Positions 51,717-58,173 of a DNA stretch of 64,000 nt are shown piece after piece. A program made the position numbers and the translations under genes. A model generated the notes under the pieces. The model saw only the letters and a program-made list of their open reading frames with translations, had not been told where the DNA came from and made no database searches. The DNA is from Formosa sp. Hel3_A1_48 (GTDB lineage: Bacteria; Bacteroidota; Bacteroidia; Flavobacteriales; Flavobacteriaceae). Where the stretch lies: NCBI RefSeq assembly GCF_001735715.1, contig NZ_CP017259.1, forward strand, positions 617,501 to 681,500, in the 5' to 3' direction. How positions within the stretch are numbered: the first letter of the stretch is position 1; each line of letters begins with the position of its first letter.

Positions 51717-51746
51717 TTGCCTAATTAAAAAAGCTGCTTATATTTG
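51717..51746 (+). promoter_or_regulatory. trp operon promoter
   Basis: TTG (51717-51719, in TTTG), 19 nt, TATATTTG (51739-51746). With the start expected 5-8 nt later (51752-51754), the leader peptide ATG at 51755 lies almost at the mRNA's 5' end. Confidence 0.88.
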
Positions 51747-51754
51747 AAAACATT

Positions 51755-51805
51755 ATGAATAACAAAAAACAAATTACTTGGTGGTGGGCATCTCGATTTA
51801 ATTAG
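51755..51805 (+). CDS. trpL: trp operon leader peptide
   Basis: A 16-codon reading frame encoding MNNKKQITWWWASRFN, ending in TAG at 51803-51805. Three consecutive Trp codons (51779-51787) make it a sensor of charged tRNA-Trp. It lies between the trp promoter and the attenuator terminator before trpE. The stop codon's last base begins the antiterminator segment, so a ribosome that finishes the peptide would mask it. Too short for normal gene calling. Confidence 0.9.
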   Translation: MNNKKQITWWWASRFN

Positions 51806-51853
51806 TCGTGAACACCCCTAGTATGTAAAAATATCAAGGCTTGTCATCACGAC
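51805..51853 (+). promoter_or_regulatory. antiterminator segments of the trp attenuator
   Basis: GTCGTGA (51805-51811) is the exact complement of TCACGAC (51847-51853). The second segment includes the terminator loop and the start of its 3' arm, so pairing would break the terminator. A ribosome stalled on the Trp codons (51779-51787) leaves the first segment free. GGTG at 51780-51783 can also pair with CACC at 51813-51816, giving a possible protector hairpin. Confidence 0.75.
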
Positions 51854-51866
51854 AAGCCTTTTTTTT
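51836..51866 (+). terminator. trp attenuator terminator
   Basis: AAGGCTTGTC (51836-51845) and GACAAGCCTT (51851-51860) form a 10-bp stem with a 5-nt loop, followed by Ts to 51866. The trpE ATG begins at the next base, 51867. Confidence 0.93.
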
Positions 51867-53270
51867 ATGAAAAAAACGTACAAACTACAAACACATTATA
51901 AGAAAATATTGGCAGACACACTTTCGCCAGTAAGCATCTATCTCAAAATTAGGGACAAATTTCCCAATAGTATGCTGCTGGAAAGCAGTGACTATCATGG
52001 AAACGACAATAGCTTCTCATACATCTGCTGTAATCCGATTGCCACAATAAAAATTGAAGGTAATACGCTAACAAAAACATATCCTGACCAATCCAAAGAA
52101 ACCTCAATTATTGAAAATAATGAGGTAACTAATGAAATCCATCAGTTTACAAAACAATTTAAAACGCAAACGAAAGAGAAGTTTAAATTTATAAACAATG
52201 GTCTTTTTGGCTATACTTCATACGATGCTGTAAAATATTTCGAAACTATTGAACTTTCGGAAAAAGAAGATTCAATCACTATACCAGAACTACAGTATGC
52301 TGTTTATCAAAACATCATTGCAATTAATCACTTTAAAAATGAAGCGTATATTTTTGCGCATTGTTATGAAAGTCTAAGCAATATTGATGAGCTGCACCAC
52401 ATCATCTGCATGGACCGGTTTGCCGTTTATGGATTCGAAACCACAAATGCTATTGCATCAAATTTAACAGATGGTGAGTTCAAAGAACATGTAAATATTG
52501 CCAAAAAACATTGTCAACGTGGTGACGTCTTTCAACTGGTCCTTTCACGAAAGTTTCAACAAGATTTTAAAGGGGATGAATTTAATGTTTATCGAGCCTT
52601 GCGCAGCATCAACCCATCGCCCTATCTTTTTTATTTTGATTATGGGGCATTTAAAATCTTTGGAAGTTCTCCTGAAGCTCAACTCGTAGTTAAAAACAAA
52701 AGTGCAGAAATTCACCCAATAGCTGGAACTTTTGCACGATCTGGTGACGACATGAAAGATACTGCACTAGCACAAAAATTGGTCGATGACGAAAAAGAAA
52801 ATAGCGAACATGTTATGTTAGTCGATTTGGCAAGAAATGACCTCAGCCGCCATTGCTCTAAAGTCACTGTAGAAAACTACAGAGAAATACAATTCTTTTC
52901 GCATGTAATTCATCTAGTAAGCAAGGTTATTGGAACAATTCGAGACCACACCTCTACTATGCAAATCGTTGCAGACACCTTTCCTGCAGGGACGCTTTCT
53001 GGTGCGCCAAAATATAAAGCAATGGAATTGATAGAAACCTATGAAAAAACAAGCCGAGGGTTCTATGGAGGAGCCATAGGCTTTATGGATTTTGAAGGGA
53101 ATTATAACCACGCCATTATGATCAGAACTTTCCTGAGTAAAAATCAACAGTTGCATTGGCAAGCAGGTGCAGGGATTGTTTCAAAATCAAATCCTGAAAA
53201 TGAATTGCAAGAGGTCTTTAACAAACTTGGAGCCCTAACCAATGCCATTAAACGCGCTGAAAAAATTTAA
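51867..53270 (+). CDS. trpE: anthranilate synthase component I
   Basis: With TrpG it makes anthranilate from chorismate, the first step to tryptophan. The 467-residue product has the N-terminal LLESSDYHGN region; LLES is part of the tryptophan feedback site in known enzymes. The chorismate domain carries ERFLQxVLS-type text (GDVFQLVLSRKF), PSPYLFYFDYG, IHPIAGTFARSGDD and LVDLARNDLSRHC. PAGTLSGAPKYKAMELI lies near the end. It begins right after the attenuator terminator and overlaps trpG by no more than a base. Confidence 0.98.
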   Translation: MKKTYKLQTHYKKILADTLSPVSIYLKIRDKFPNSMLLESSDYHGNDNSFSYICCNPIATIKIEGNTLTKTYPDQSKETSIIENNEVTNEIHQFTKQFKTQTKEKFKFINNGLFGYTSYDAVKYFETIELSEKEDSITIPELQYAVYQNIIAINHFKNEAYIFAHCYESLSNIDELHHIICMDRFAVYGFETTNAIASNLTDGEFKEHVNIAKKHCQRGDVFQLVLSRKFQQDFKGDEFNVYRALRSINPSPYLFYFDYGAFKIFGSSPEAQLVVKNKSAEIHPIAGTFARSGDDMKDTALAQKLVDDEKENSEHVMLVDLARNDLSRHCSKVTVENYREIQFFSHVIHLVSKVIGTIRDHTSTMQIVADTFPAGTLSGAPKYKAMELIETYEKTSRGFYGGAIGFMDFEGNYNHAIMIRTFLSKNQQLHWQAGAGIVSKSNPENELQEVFNKLGALTNAIKRAEKI

Positions 53271-53271
53271 C

Positions 53272-53838
53272 ATGAAAGATATTTTAGTAATAGATAATTA
53301 CGATAGTTTTACTTACAACTTGGTGCACTATTTAGAAGATTTAGAATGCAGTGTCACAGTCAAAAGAAATGATCAACTTGAACTAAAAGAAGTAGATAAT
53401 TTCGACAAAATAGTACTCTCTCCTGGTCCAGGTATTCCTGACGAAGCTGGGCTATTAAAACCCATCATAAAAACCTTCGCAGCAACGAAAAGTATTTTAG
53501 GTGTTTGTTTGGGAATGCAAGCAATCGGCGAAGTATTTGGTGCCGAACTTCATAATCTTGATACTGTGTATCATGGTATTCAAACAAAAGTGAAGATTAC
53601 CTCAAAAAATGAAAAACTTTTCAAAGGTTTAGGCCAAACAATTGATGTTGGCCGCTACCACTCATGGGTTGTCAAAGGGCAAATACCGGATTGCCTTGAA
53701 ATAACTTCTGTTGACGAAAACGATCAGATAATGGCACTACGACACAAAGATTATGATGTCAAAGGCGTTCAGTTTCATCCTGAATCAGTATTGACTCCGG
53801 ACGGAAAAATCATATTAAAAAACTGGATTAATTCATAA
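53272..53838 (+). CDS. trpG: anthranilate synthase component II (glutamine amidotransferase)
   Basis: Supplies ammonia from glutamine to TrpE. The 188-residue protein starts MKDILVIDNYDSFTYNLVHYL at 53272, just after the trpE stop. The catalytic triad is visible: Cys in LGVCLGMQAIGE and His/Glu in VQFHPESVLTP. The longer start at 53242 would overlap trpE and add a non-family N-terminus, so it was not used. Confidence 0.97.
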   Translation: MKDILVIDNYDSFTYNLVHYLEDLECSVTVKRNDQLELKEVDNFDKIVLSPGPGIPDEAGLLKPIIKTFAATKSILGVCLGMQAIGEVFGAELHNLDTVYHGIQTKVKITSKNEKLFKGLGQTIDVGRYHSWVVKGQIPDCLEITSVDENDQIMALRHKDYDVKGVQFHPESVLTPDGKIILKNWINS

Positions 53839-53840
53839 AA

Positions 53841-54827
53841 ATGAAAGCACTTTTAAATCGACTTATAAACCACGAAAGCATCAGTGCTGAGGAAGCCAAG
53901 CAAATTCTAATCAGTATCTCTAAAGGAGATTATAATCAGGCTCAAATCGCATCATTCCTTACTGTTTATATGATGCGCAGTATAACTGTAAATGAACTTC
54001 AAGGCTTTAGAGACGCCTTGCTCGAACTGTGCTTAGCAGTTGATTTACAAACTTACGACCCAATTGATTTATGTGGAACTGGTGGGGATGGTAAAGATAC
54101 ATTCAATATTTCTACACTGTCGTCATTTATTACTGCCGGAGCGGGGGTTGCCGTTGCCAAACATGGAAATTACGGAGTGTCATCGGCCTGCGGGTCATCA
54201 AATGTTTTGGAGGCATTAGGAGTCAAATTCTCTAATGATAAAGACCATTTGAAGCGCGCCATGGAAACTGCCAATATATGCGTATTACATGCGCCTTTGT
54301 TCCACCCTGCAATGAAAAATGTAGCACCAATAAGAAAAGCCCTAGGAATTAAGACTTTTTTTAATATGTTAGGTCCAATGGTTAACCCCTCGTTTCCTAA
54401 ACATCAAATGGTTGGTGTATTTAATTTAGAATTACTTAGGTTATACAACTATCTATACCAAAAAACCGATAAAAACTATAGTATTGTTCATGATTTAGGG
54501 GGGTATGATGAACTTTCATTGACGAACAACGCTAAAATTGCTACCAACCAATCAGAGTTGCTATTTTCGCCTGATGATTTAGACCTAAAATCCATAACAG
54601 CCGAGTCGATTTTTGGCGGAAATACAGTCAAAGAGGCTACAGAAATTTTCGAGTCCATCATTTCAGGCAAAGGAAGTAAAGCACAAAATGCGGTGGTATG
54701 CGCAAATGCTGGTTTAGCCATAGCTACAGCTAAAGAAATTACACACAAAGAAGGTTTTGAGTATGCAAAAGAAAGTCTGCTAAGTGGCAAAGCCAAAACC
54801 TGTCTTACAAAATTAACCGCTCTCTAA
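53841..54827 (+). CDS. trpD: anthranilate phosphoribosyltransferase
   Basis: Adds phosphoribose from PRPP to anthranilate. It is 328 residues. The PRPP-binding Gly-rich motif is DLCGTGGDGKDTFNIST, followed by KHGNYGVSSACGSSNVLEALG; HPAMKNVAPIRKALG and the FFNMLGPMVNPS anthranilate-site text are also present. It lies 2 nt after trpG and 1 nt before trpC. Confidence 0.98.
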   Translation: MKALLNRLINHESISAEEAKQILISISKGDYNQAQIASFLTVYMMRSITVNELQGFRDALLELCLAVDLQTYDPIDLCGTGGDGKDTFNISTLSSFITAGAGVAVAKHGNYGVSSACGSSNVLEALGVKFSNDKDHLKRAMETANICVLHAPLFHPAMKNVAPIRKALGIKTFFNMLGPMVNPSFPKHQMVGVFNLELLRLYNYLYQKTDKNYSIVHDLGGYDELSLTNNAKIATNQSELLFSPDDLDLKSITAESIFGGNTVKEATEIFESIISGKGSKAQNAVVCANAGLAIATAKEITHKEGFEYAKESLLSGKAKTCLTKLTAL

Positions 54828-54828
54828 C

Positions 54829-55614
54829 ATGACTATTTTAGATAAAATCATAAAAGACAAATACAAAGAGGTAGAACTTCGAAAGGCTCTAATTCCTGTG
54901 AAGCAACTGGAACAATCTGTTCTTTGTGATCGTCCAATAAACTCCCTCAAAGCAAAATTGGAGCAAAGTGCGTCAGGTATTATTGCCGAACACAAGCGAC
55001 GTTCTCCATCCAAAGCCACTATCAATCAAAATTTGAATGTTGATGATGTAGCTAAAGGATATCAAAAAGCAGGAGTATGCGGCATGTCTGTCCTTACGGA
55101 TATGAAGTATTTTGGAGGAGGATTAGAGGATTTACTCACGGCACGGGCCAGTTGCGAATTACCTCTTTTGCGAAAAGAATTTATAATAGATCCCTATCAA
55201 ATATTGGAAGCTAAAGCCTATGGAGCCGATGTAATTCTGCTTATTGCAGCAGTTCTTAGCAGAGATGAAATCAAATCTTTGTCAAGATTTGCGCAACAAC
55301 TAAATATTGAAGTACTGCTTGAAATACACAACGAAAACGAATTGAACAAATCAATGATGCCTAGTTTGGATATGATAGGGGTTAACAACAGAAATTTAAA
55401 AACATTTGAGGTCGATTTAAACCACAGTATAAATTTAAGTTCCATTATTCCAAAAGAATTTTTAAAAGTGTCTGAAAGCGGAATCAGTTCAGTTGAAGCT
55501 ATAAAAATGTTGCAACCCTTTGGCTATAAAGGCTTTTTGATTGGAGAAAATTTTATGAAAACAAACCAACCGGGGACTAGTGCTGCAAACTTCATAAAAC
55601 AACTTGAGTCATGA
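54829..55614 (+). CDS. trpC: indole-3-glycerol phosphate synthase
   Basis: Closes the indole ring with loss of CO2. The 261-residue TIM barrel has the catalytic Lys in IIAEHKRRSPSKATI, KEFIIDPYQILEAKAYGAD, GVNNRNLKTF and the phosphate-site VSESGISS. It stands as a single-function protein, not fused to TrpF as in E. coli. It overlaps trpF by 4 nt. Confidence 0.98.
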   Translation: MTILDKIIKDKYKEVELRKALIPVKQLEQSVLCDRPINSLKAKLEQSASGIIAEHKRRSPSKATINQNLNVDDVAKGYQKAGVCGMSVLTDMKYFGGGLEDLLTARASCELPLLRKEFIIDPYQILEAKAYGADVILLIAAVLSRDEIKSLSRFAQQLNIEVLLEIHNENELNKSMMPSLDMIGVNNRNLKTFEVDLNHSINLSSIIPKEFLKVSESGISSVEAIKMLQPFGYKGFLIGENFMKTNQPGTSAANFIKQLES

Positions 55615-56225
55615 AGCTGAAAATTTGTGGGATGAAATATCAAGAAAATATTTTGGATGTAGCAGCGCTCAGCCCAGACTACATGGGCTTTATTTTTTAT
55701 GAAAACTCACCACGCTCCATTGACACTTACATTCCAGTCATACCAAAATCAATAAAAAAAGTAGGGGTTTTTGTCAATGAATCCCTAGAAAACGTAAAGA
55801 AAAAGGCCGCTCAATACAATTTGAATACAGTTCAACTACACGGCCATGAAGCCCCTGAATTCTGTAGGAAATTAAAAAGTGAGGGACTGGAAATTATCAA
55901 AGTTTTTTCGATAAGAAATGAATTTGATTTTTCGCGACTGAGTGCTTACGAGCCTTTCATCGATTTTTTTCTTTTCGACACTAAAGGCAAAAATCCTGGT
56001 GGTAATGGATTTTGCTTTGATTGGAACGTGTTGCAAGATTACGATGCAAACAAACCTTATTTTTTAAGTGGTGGAATTGGAGTAGAACAACTTGAATCCC
56101 TAAAAAAATTCAAGAATAGTACAGCTGCAAAACAGTGTTATGCAATAGACATCAACAGTAAATTTGAACTAAAACCAGGACTTAAAGACGATATTAAACT
56201 TAAAAACTTTATTAAACAATTATGA
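55611..56225 (+). CDS. trpF: phosphoribosylanthranilate isomerase
   Basis: Carries out the Amadori rearrangement before TrpC. It is 204 residues with the catalytic Cys in LKICGMKYQENI and the Asp in FLFDTKGKNPGGNG; HGHEAPEFC and SGGIGVEQ are also typical. It is coupled by 4-nt overlaps to both trpC and trpB. Confidence 0.96.
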   Translation: MKLKICGMKYQENILDVAALSPDYMGFIFYENSPRSIDTYIPVIPKSIKKVGVFVNESLENVKKKAAQYNLNTVQLHGHEAPEFCRKLKSEGLEIIKVFSIRNEFDFSRLSAYEPFIDFFLFDTKGKNPGGNGFCFDWNVLQDYDANKPYFLSGGIGVEQLESLKKFKNSTAAKQCYAIDINSKFELKPGLKDDIKLKNFIKQL

Positions 56226-57403
56226 GTTATCACGTAAATGAAAAAGGGTATTACGGTCAATTTGGTGGTGCATTTATTCCAGAAATGCTTTACCCAAATA
56301 TTGAAGAATTACGTCAAAAATATTTAAGTATTATGGCAGAGCCTGATTTTAAGGCCGAGTTTGACCAATTATTAAAAAACTATGTTGGGCGCCCGACCCC
56401 TTTGTATTATGCAAAGCGCTTTTCGGAAAAATACAACACTAAAATTTACTTCAAAAGAGAAGATTTGTGCCACACAGGAGCGCATAAAGTTAATAATACC
56501 ATAGGCCAAATTTTAATGGCCAAACGTTTGGGTAAATCGCGCATTATTGCAGAGACTGGAGCTGGACAACACGGTGTAGCAACGGCTACGGTTTGTGCAT
56601 TAGCAGGCATACAATGCATCGTTTATATGGGTGAAATTGATATTGCTCGTCAAGCACCAAACGTTGCGCGTATGAAAATGTTAGGCGCCGAAGTTCGTCC
56701 AGCTAAATCTGGAAGCCGAACATTAAAAGATGCTACAAATGAAGCCATCCGCGATTGGATCAACAATCCAGAAGATACACACTATATTATTGGAAGCGCA
56801 GTCGGCCCACACCCTTATCCAGATATGGTATCCCGATTTCAATCTGTTGTTTCAGAAGAAATCAAATGGCAACTCAATGCAGCGGAGGGTAATGAAAACC
56901 CCAATTATGTAGTAGCTTGCGTCGGAGGTGGAAGTAATGCAGCTGGAGCATATTATCATTTTTTGGATGATGAACGGGTAGGTCTTATTGCTGTAGAGGC
57001 TGCCGGAAAAGGGGTTGACACCGGTGAAAGTGCTGCCACTTCAATTCTCGGAAAAGAGGGAATTATCCATGGGAGTAAAACACTACTAATGCAAACTCAG
57101 GACGGTCAAATTACAGAACCTTACTCCATCTCTGCAGGCTTAGATTACCCCGGAGTTGGCCCCATGCATGCACATTTGCATACCACCAAACGAGCAGAAT
57201 TTATTCCGGTAACAGATGATGAGGCAATGACAGCTGGGCTAATGCTTTCGCAATTAGAAGGTATTATTCCTGCTATAGAAACAGCACATGCTTTTGCCAT
57301 TTTTGAAACTAAAAAATTTAAACCGAATGATATTGTCGTAGTCTGTCTGTCTGGTCGGGGCGATAAAGACCTCAACACATACATTGATTATTTTAAATTA
57401 TAA
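56222..57403 (+). CDS. trpB: tryptophan synthase beta subunit
   Basis: Condenses indole with serine using pyridoxal phosphate. At 393 residues it has the PLP Lys in REDLCHTGAHKVNNTIGQ, AETGAGQHGVATATV, the phosphate-binding VGGGSNAAG and the DYPGVGPMHAHL substrate loop. It is the short, trpA-dependent TrpB1 type. The trpF stop overlaps its start by 4 nt. Confidence 0.99.
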   Translation: MSYHVNEKGYYGQFGGAFIPEMLYPNIEELRQKYLSIMAEPDFKAEFDQLLKNYVGRPTPLYYAKRFSEKYNTKIYFKREDLCHTGAHKVNNTIGQILMAKRLGKSRIIAETGAGQHGVATATVCALAGIQCIVYMGEIDIARQAPNVARMKMLGAEVRPAKSGSRTLKDATNEAIRDWINNPEDTHYIIGSAVGPHPYPDMVSRFQSVVSEEIKWQLNAAEGNENPNYVVACVGGGSNAAGAYYHFLDDERVGLIAVEAAGKGVDTGESAATSILGKEGIIHGSKTLLMQTQDGQITEPYSISAGLDYPGVGPMHAHLHTTKRAEFIPVTDDEAMTAGLMLSQLEGIIPAIETAHAFAIFETKKFKPNDIVVVCLSGRGDKDLNTYIDYFKL

Positions 57404-57408
57404 TTCTA

Positions 57409-58173
57409 ATGAACAGAATTCAAGCAAAACTAAAAGAAGATAAAAAGCTGCTCTCAATTTATTTTTCATCAGGTTTCCCTGAGGTTAATGATACTGTTGA
57501 AATTATAAAACGTCTTGAAAAAAGCGGAGTGGACATGATTGAAATCGGATTGCCTTTCAGTGACCCGCTAGCCGATGGACCAACTATACAAGCAAGTTCA
57601 ACAAAAGCCCTACAAAATGGCATGAATACGGCCTTGCTTTTTAAGCAACTCAAAGACATCAGAAAAGAGGTCTCTATTCCATTGATCCTTATGGGTTATT
57701 TTAATCCAATGCTACAATATGGTGTCGAAGCTTTTTGTAAAAAATGCCATGAAGTTGGAATCGATGGCTTTATTATTCCAGACTTACCAGCACAAGTGTA
57801 CCATGAGGAGTACAAAGCGATTTTTGATCGCTATGGATTACTCAATATTTTCTTAATTACACCACAAACCTCTGATGAACGTATTCGTTATATGGACTCG
57901 ATTTCAGAAGGATTTATTTATATGGTGAGTAGTGCCAGCACAACTGGAACTCAAAGCGGTTTTGGACAAACACAACAAGATTATTTCAAGCGCATTGAAA
58001 ATTTGAACCTAAAGAATCCACAAATTGTTGGGTTTGGAATTTCGAATAAAGAAACATTTGTACAAGCTACAACACATGCCAAAGGAGCCATCATCGGCAG
58101 TGCCTTTATCAAATATATTGATACTCAAGGGGTCGATAAAATTCACGAATTTGTTGGGAATATTTTAAATTAA
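57409..58173 (+). CDS. trpA: tryptophan synthase alpha subunit
   Basis: Releases indole from indole-glycerol phosphate and passes it to TrpB. The 254-residue TIM barrel has the catalytic Glu in MIEIGLPFSDPLADGP and Asp in DGFIIPDLP, and the phosphate loop GFGISNKETF. It ends the trpEGDCFBA operon, with 5 nt between trpB and trpA. Confidence 0.98.
   Translation: MNRIQAKLKEDKKLLSIYFSSGFPEVNDTVEIIKRLEKSGVDMIEIGLPFSDPLADGPTIQASSTKALQNGMNTALLFKQLKDIRKEVSIPLILMGYFNPMLQYGVEAFCKKCHEVGIDGFIIPDLPAQVYHEEYKAIFDRYGLLNIFLITPQTSDERIRYMDSISEGFIYMVSSASTTGTQSGFGQTQQDYFKRIENLNLKNPQIVGFGISNKETFVQATTHAKGAIIGSAFIKYIDTQGVDKIHEFVGNILN

Follow-up and report, generated by a model that had tools for sequence, protein, structure and literature searches.

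A predicted ribosome-mediated tryptophan attenuator ahead of trpEGDCFBA in Formosa sp. Hel3_A1_48 and its relatives in the Bacteroidia

What controls entry of RNA polymerase into a trp operon that is preceded by a short Trp-rich ORF and a strong terminator, in a member of the Bacteroidetes? The question is raised by a 64,000-nt stretch of the genome of Formosa sp. Hel3_A1_48 (Flavobacteriaceae; single contig, 2.02 Mb), referred to here as the window, in which an intact trpEGDCFBA operon begins with trpE (the genes after trpE occupy 53242..58173 of the + strand). The arrangement very probably constitutes a ribosome-mediated transcription attenuator of the trpL type, to judge from comparison of relatives and from modelled folding. 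The elements are the following (all on the + strand).

51717 to 51746, +: sigma-A promoter of the Bacteroidetes type, TTG at 51717-51719 (-33), 19 nt, then TATATTTG at 51739-51746 (-7 box); read from the sequence
51751 to 51754, +: predicted 5' UTR of about 4 nt, inferred from the spacing of the -7 box
51755 to 51805, +: leader peptide ORF of 16 codons, MNNKKQITWWWASRFN, ATG at 51755 and stop codon TAG at 51803-51805; from sequence and relatives
51779 to 51787, +: three Trp sensor codons, TGG TGG TGG (WWW in 184 of 199 relatives, WW in 15)
51775 to 51823, +: protector hairpin (1:2), the Trp-codon region and CGATT at 51794-51798 (segment A) pairing with 51804-51823; from the minimum free energy (MFE) fold
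51805 to 51811, +: antiterminator 5' strand, segment B, GTCGTGA, exact complement of 51847-51853; covariation
51847 to 51853, +: antiterminator 3' strand, segment C, TCACGAC, comprising the terminator loop and the first 3 nt of the 3' arm
51836 to 51866, +: intrinsic terminator, AAGGCTTGTC-ATCAC-GACAAGCCTT plus T-run (stem-loop 51836-51860, T-run 51859-51866); fold and covariation
51867 to 53270, +: trpE, anthranilate synthase component I, best match NCBIfam TIGR00564
53242 to 53838, +: trpG (this and the genes below by NCBIfam match and ORF)
53841 to 54827, +: trpD
54829 to 55614, +: trpC
55611 to 56225, +: trpF
56222 to 57403, +: trpB
57409 to 58173, +: trpA

The DNA thus demonstrates an order of leader ORF with Trp run, predicted protector (A:B), predicted antiterminator (B:C), terminator and trpEGDCFBA. 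The promoter, the 16-codon WWW leader, the 7-bp antiterminator and the 10-bp terminator had been located by an initial annotation of this DNA, with coordinates that are exact to the base. Four of the traits by which a trpL-type attenuator is recognized are found: a run of cognate codons in a short ORF directly 5' of the trp operon; an intrinsic terminator between that ORF and the first structural gene; an antiterminator that covaries and is incompatible with the terminator (the overlap being 3 stem pairs plus the loop); and, in silico only, a stall at Trp that frees the antiterminator strand and an arrival at the stop codon that hides it.

Attenuators of the E. coli trpL type have two Trp codons and an antiterminator formed mainly with the 5' arm of the terminator. 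The locus in the window shares with them the short leader ORF with consecutive Trp codons, the intrinsic terminator before trpE and the mutually exclusive 1:2, 2:3 and 3:4 pairings. It differs in having three Trp codons instead of two, an antiterminator built on the loop and 3' arm of the terminator and not chiefly on its 5' arm, a Bacteroidetes sigma-A promoter, almost no predicted 5' UTR, no Shine-Dalgarno sequence, and no TrpR that could be found. The unusual features are the loop-directed antiterminator and the very short 5' UTR, both as predicted from sequence.

The proposed switch would operate as follows. Transcription would begin about 4 nt upstream of the leader ATG, and a ribosome would load there immediately. 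When Trp-tRNA is ample, the ribosome would reach the stop codon and mask segment B (51805-51811), which would allow the terminator to fold and end transcription ahead of trpE. When Trp-tRNA is scarce, a ribosome stalled on the TGG codons would mask segment A, leaving segment B free to capture the emerging terminator loop and the first bases of the 3' arm (51847-51853); this capture would hold back the terminator long enough for polymerase to clear the T-run, permitting readthrough. In the absence of a ribosome, segment B would be held within the leader hairpin, making termination the default state. The first base of the antiterminator is, as had been pointed out, also the last base of the leader stop codon, but the accompanying suggestion that ribosome release hides the segment calls for refinement: it is the ribosome sitting at the stop codon that would hide 51805-51811, and after release segment B can re-pair with the leader ORF.

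The terminator lies very close to the gene that it is proposed to control. Its T-run ends (51866) at the trpE ATG (51867), and the hairpin ends 6 nt 5' of that ATG. This proximity had been read as leaving trpE with no ordinary ribosome-binding region. The lack of a Shine-Dalgarno sequence is in itself normal, because Bacteroidetes are naturally without such sites (PMC6847099); the close hairpin is real and confined to the window's clade, in which 12 of 12 loci place its end 5-10 nt ahead of the trpE start codon (median 22, minimum 9, at the other loci). The trpE start region is also predicted to be less open in this clade (mean unpaired probability 0.34, against 0.55 elsewhere). Since the hairpin ends only 6 nt from the ATG, a second level of control can be proposed, additional to attenuation, in which the terminator hairpin re-forms after readthrough and also blocks translation of trpE. 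The uniform spacing in the clade and its less open start region speak for such a block; on the other hand, a close hairpin could reflect mere shrinkage of intergenic DNA in small genomes, and equilibrium folding leaves out ribosomes and polymerase. On balance, we consider this additional control unlikely.

Folding calculations bear on transcription attenuation itself. The 116-nt leader RNA folds at -34 kcal/mol (z = -5.0; as stable in 0 of 200 shuffles), and only 0.1 terminator-like sites are expected per shuffled region; together with the leader and motif counts in relatives given below, these values place the locus well outside anything that chance would produce. The protector hairpin covers the antiterminator 5' strand, and relatives fold similarly; since segment B thus finds a further partner in the leader ORF, immediately past the Trp codons, the usual three-way exclusion results. 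When the window's sequence is folded stepwise with a ribosome masking a Trp codon (the footprint being taken as 15 nt past the first base of the P site, a general bacterial value), the B:C pairing is the MFE structure from about 51852 to 51857-51859; it never forms when the RNA is unmasked or the ribosome is placed at the stop codon. The stall/stop geometry of the initial annotation therefore works in simulation. In the same test on 123 genera, 5 or more antiterminator pairs form in 100% of cases when the ribosome is stalled at Trp, in 32% when the RNA is free and in 7% when a ribosome sits on the stop codon, the corresponding values for shuffled-spacer controls being 34-38%, 14% and 21%; about a third of genera show B:C pairing to some extent without a mask. 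Even with the ribosome stalled, the complete terminator is favored by ~1-3 kcal/mol (the antiterminator displaces only the top 3 of its 10 pairs), implying that antitermination must, as predicted, be kinetic.

Relatives of the locus were found by TrpE searches, and the stretches upstream of trpE were then compared. Of the 201 non-redundant regions from Flavobacteriaceae, 199 have a WW or WWW leader 5' of trpE, and contig ends truncate the remaining two; other orders of the Bacteroidia show such a leader at 13 of 15 loci (the exceptions, L272 and L275, have no such leader within 450 nt upstream of trpE). That the predicted tryptophan switch is common to the family and to most other Bacteroidia examined argues that it is real and of a well-known class. 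Attenuation ahead of trpE appears, from these comparisons, not to be confined to Proteobacteria and to be general in the Bacteroidia sampled. The leader ORF of the nearest relative (L042) differs from that of the window by synonymous AAT/AAC swaps only, and in many relatives the ORF extends through segment B (TTC GTG AAC TAA, that is, FVN and stop).

The pairing partners are conserved along with the peptide. A motif combining segment B with the terminator loop (TCGTGA-N26..56-TGTC-N0..4-TCACGACA) has a single occurrence in the host genome and is present in 102 of the 148 genomes from the family; the reversed-pattern control has 0 matches. Automatic helix calling ranks segment B with the terminator loop and 3' arm first in 192 of 195 regions; a few of its B:C calls are weak or wrong (L045, L190, L199 and L202), and in some lineages (L190, L199, L202) the pairing is itself weak or unclear. 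In an alignment of 52 sequences, 98.3% of terminator cells are paired and compensatory double changes occur at 9 of the 10 pairs; the antiterminator shows double changes at 5 of its 7 pairs. It has 15 doubly changed cells where shuffles average 2.5, a level of covariation that 0 of 500 shuffles reach, and slid registers score clearly lower. Divergent lineages keep B:C complementarity with other letters: TCGCAAT/ATTGCGA, GGATTCAG/CTGAATCC, TGAATCGG/CCGATTCA and CTTGCCGGGT/ACCCGGCAAG. Alignment of the leader in relatives had been put forward as a check, and in it the Trp codons prove conserved and the 7-bp pairing both conserved and covarying. Antiterminators of other Bacteroidia orders sometimes engage the 5' arm of the terminator (L273, L278, L282, L283, L286), so that the loop/3'-arm form can be thought of as the flavobacterial version.

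Over 119 genera, the Trp run and the start of segment B are separated by a median of 18 nt (sd 1.9); the spacing between segment B and the stop codon is far more variable (sd 5.8). The near-constancy of the one distance and the variability of the other imply that the Trp run sets the geometry of the switch; the leader stop codon, entertained in that role, was dropped, the distance from Trp run to segment B being the constrained one.

Several observations concern individual loci or the terminator by itself. The terminator stem (GGCTTGTC...GACAAGCC) is near-constant over ~120 genera, and antiterminator pairing accounts for only part of this. Two loci, L241 (G149:C26:1-1200) and L242 (G164:C169:3700-5300), have tandem WWW-leader units 5' of trpE, and when folded show a terminator-like hairpin after each. 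At L254 (G181:C152), a Trp leader (MKNTVNTYWWRYLLLKKS, then stop) and terminator precede a trpB-like gene, not trpE. The trpE match of L270 (G185:C23:16187-17566) holds one in-frame TAA, either an assembly error or a pseudogene. L035 (CALSPC010000010.1), labelled Rhodobacteraceae, has a trpE 78% identical to that of the window and a flavobacterial leader; by its sequence it is probably a mislabelled or contaminated metagenome-assembled genome (MAG). Two R1 matches in the host genome (C1:1473379 and C1:1854022, E ~2e-4) look like ordinary intergenic terminators and have no Trp leaders. A search of the host genome for histidine leaders (ATG-N-(CAY)4) gave 5 matches, with a convincing leader ORF and terminator in 0 of 3 (L289 and L292 stand outside this count).

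A terminator this strong, being the MFE structure in every full-length state, might simply act constitutively or in a growth phase-dependent manner downstream of an unregulated short ORF, but this would leave the conserved Trp runs, the triple complementarity of A, B and C and its covariation unexplained, and is very improbable. Searched at the gathering threshold, Rfam gives no match at the leader and only rRNA and tRNA within the window, so that the element acts like a trp leader yet lies outside the Rfam families as modelled. A search for TrpR yielded no match in the host genome and 1 match above the cut-off among 100 family genomes. Sensing of a protein or of tRNA (TRAP-like, T-box or repressor) with an incidental Trp-rich ORF is a form of trp control that exists in other bacteria and that a terminator ahead of the trp operon would suit, but it is barely credible here, given no T-box or other riboswitch by Rfam in the window, no TrpR match in the host genome, and a conserved Trp run with 18-nt spacing to segment B that only a ribosome-based mechanism explains.

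The 5' end of the leader is predicted from the promoter (a sigma-70 scan is uninformative for this phylum). The sequence places the leader ATG (51755) 8 nt downstream of the -7 box, TATATTTG. Nearly all relatives have TAnnTTTG 5' of the leader, and 174 of 199 have TTG 17-21 nt further upstream. A passage of PMC9723704 assigns the -7 box of Flavobacterium psychrophilum to -12 to -5; by that rule the start would be at about 51751 and the UTR about 4 nt long, which backs, by inference only, the initial annotation's suggestion of a near-leaderless mRNA. For the 119 genera with a clear box, the predicted leader UTR is at most 1 nt in 28, 2-5 nt in 18, 6-9 nt in 17 and at least 10 nt in 56, so that promoter spacing predicts 5 nt or less in 46 of the 119. 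Because short predicted UTRs are found across many of these genera, the nearly leaderless leader is, as a prediction, a feature that recurs among genera. Leaderless mRNAs make up 5.5% of the mapped mRNAs of F. psychrophilum, according to a passage of the same paper (PMC9723704).

Leader-peptide attenuation is not unheard of in the Flavobacteriaceae: the 2021 F. psychrophilum study reports 'strong clues' of it before amino-acid biosynthesis operons in a host of the same family as that of the window (PMC9723704). The main-text passages on it contain no trp anatomy, antiterminator or comparative test, and the comparative anatomy given here is additional to it. Actinobacterial trp attenuators (PMC1262725, and work on C. 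glutamicum and S. venezuelae cited in PMC4833913) are likewise cases of trp leader-peptide attenuation outside the Proteobacteria; they belong to a different phylum with a different promoter type, a distinction drawn from their description. No description of a trp attenuator in Bacteroidetes was found in the open-access literature; the comparative study of Lopatovskaya et al. 2010, as cited in PMC4833913, may have predicted some.

The B/terminator platform also occurs with other sensor codons. Lys-rich leaders accompany it 5' of aspartokinase in four genomes of a Weeksellaceae-like family of Flavobacteriales (f5; L247-L250), and at L301 and L302, which belong to the Flavobacteriaceae genomes G022 and G089, neither of which has a close match to trpE. 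The leader sequences before aspartokinase are MILSNLKKGKKQYLRPMS, ...NKKDKKVHLRRTS and ...KQKDKKIYLRRMS, each ending at a stop codon. A survey upstream of lysC at 27 Flavobacteriaceae loci found the platform only at L303 (G022). Its occurrence with Lys leaders suggests that one attenuator may have been redeployed with swapped sensor codons, convergence being the alternative. The widest reading of these data, which we offer tentatively and with some doubt, is of a portable A-B-C-plus-terminator platform, of almost unchanging sequence, with swappable codons (Trp or Lys), capture of the terminator loop, a near-leaderless ORF and, in the window's clade, a hairpin that gates trpE translation.

Control of trp by ribosome stalling has hardly been described in the Bacteroidia, and no Rfam model matched it. 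It would be a general and probably old trait of this class, which does without Shine-Dalgarno initiation. The loop-directed antiterminator may serve as a test case for kinetic antitermination, and a near-leaderless stall-sensing ORF as a natural system for testing ribosome loading on nascent RNA in flavobacteria. If the platform has indeed been reused upstream of aspartokinase with Lys codons, it would be a clear case of modular attenuator evolution.
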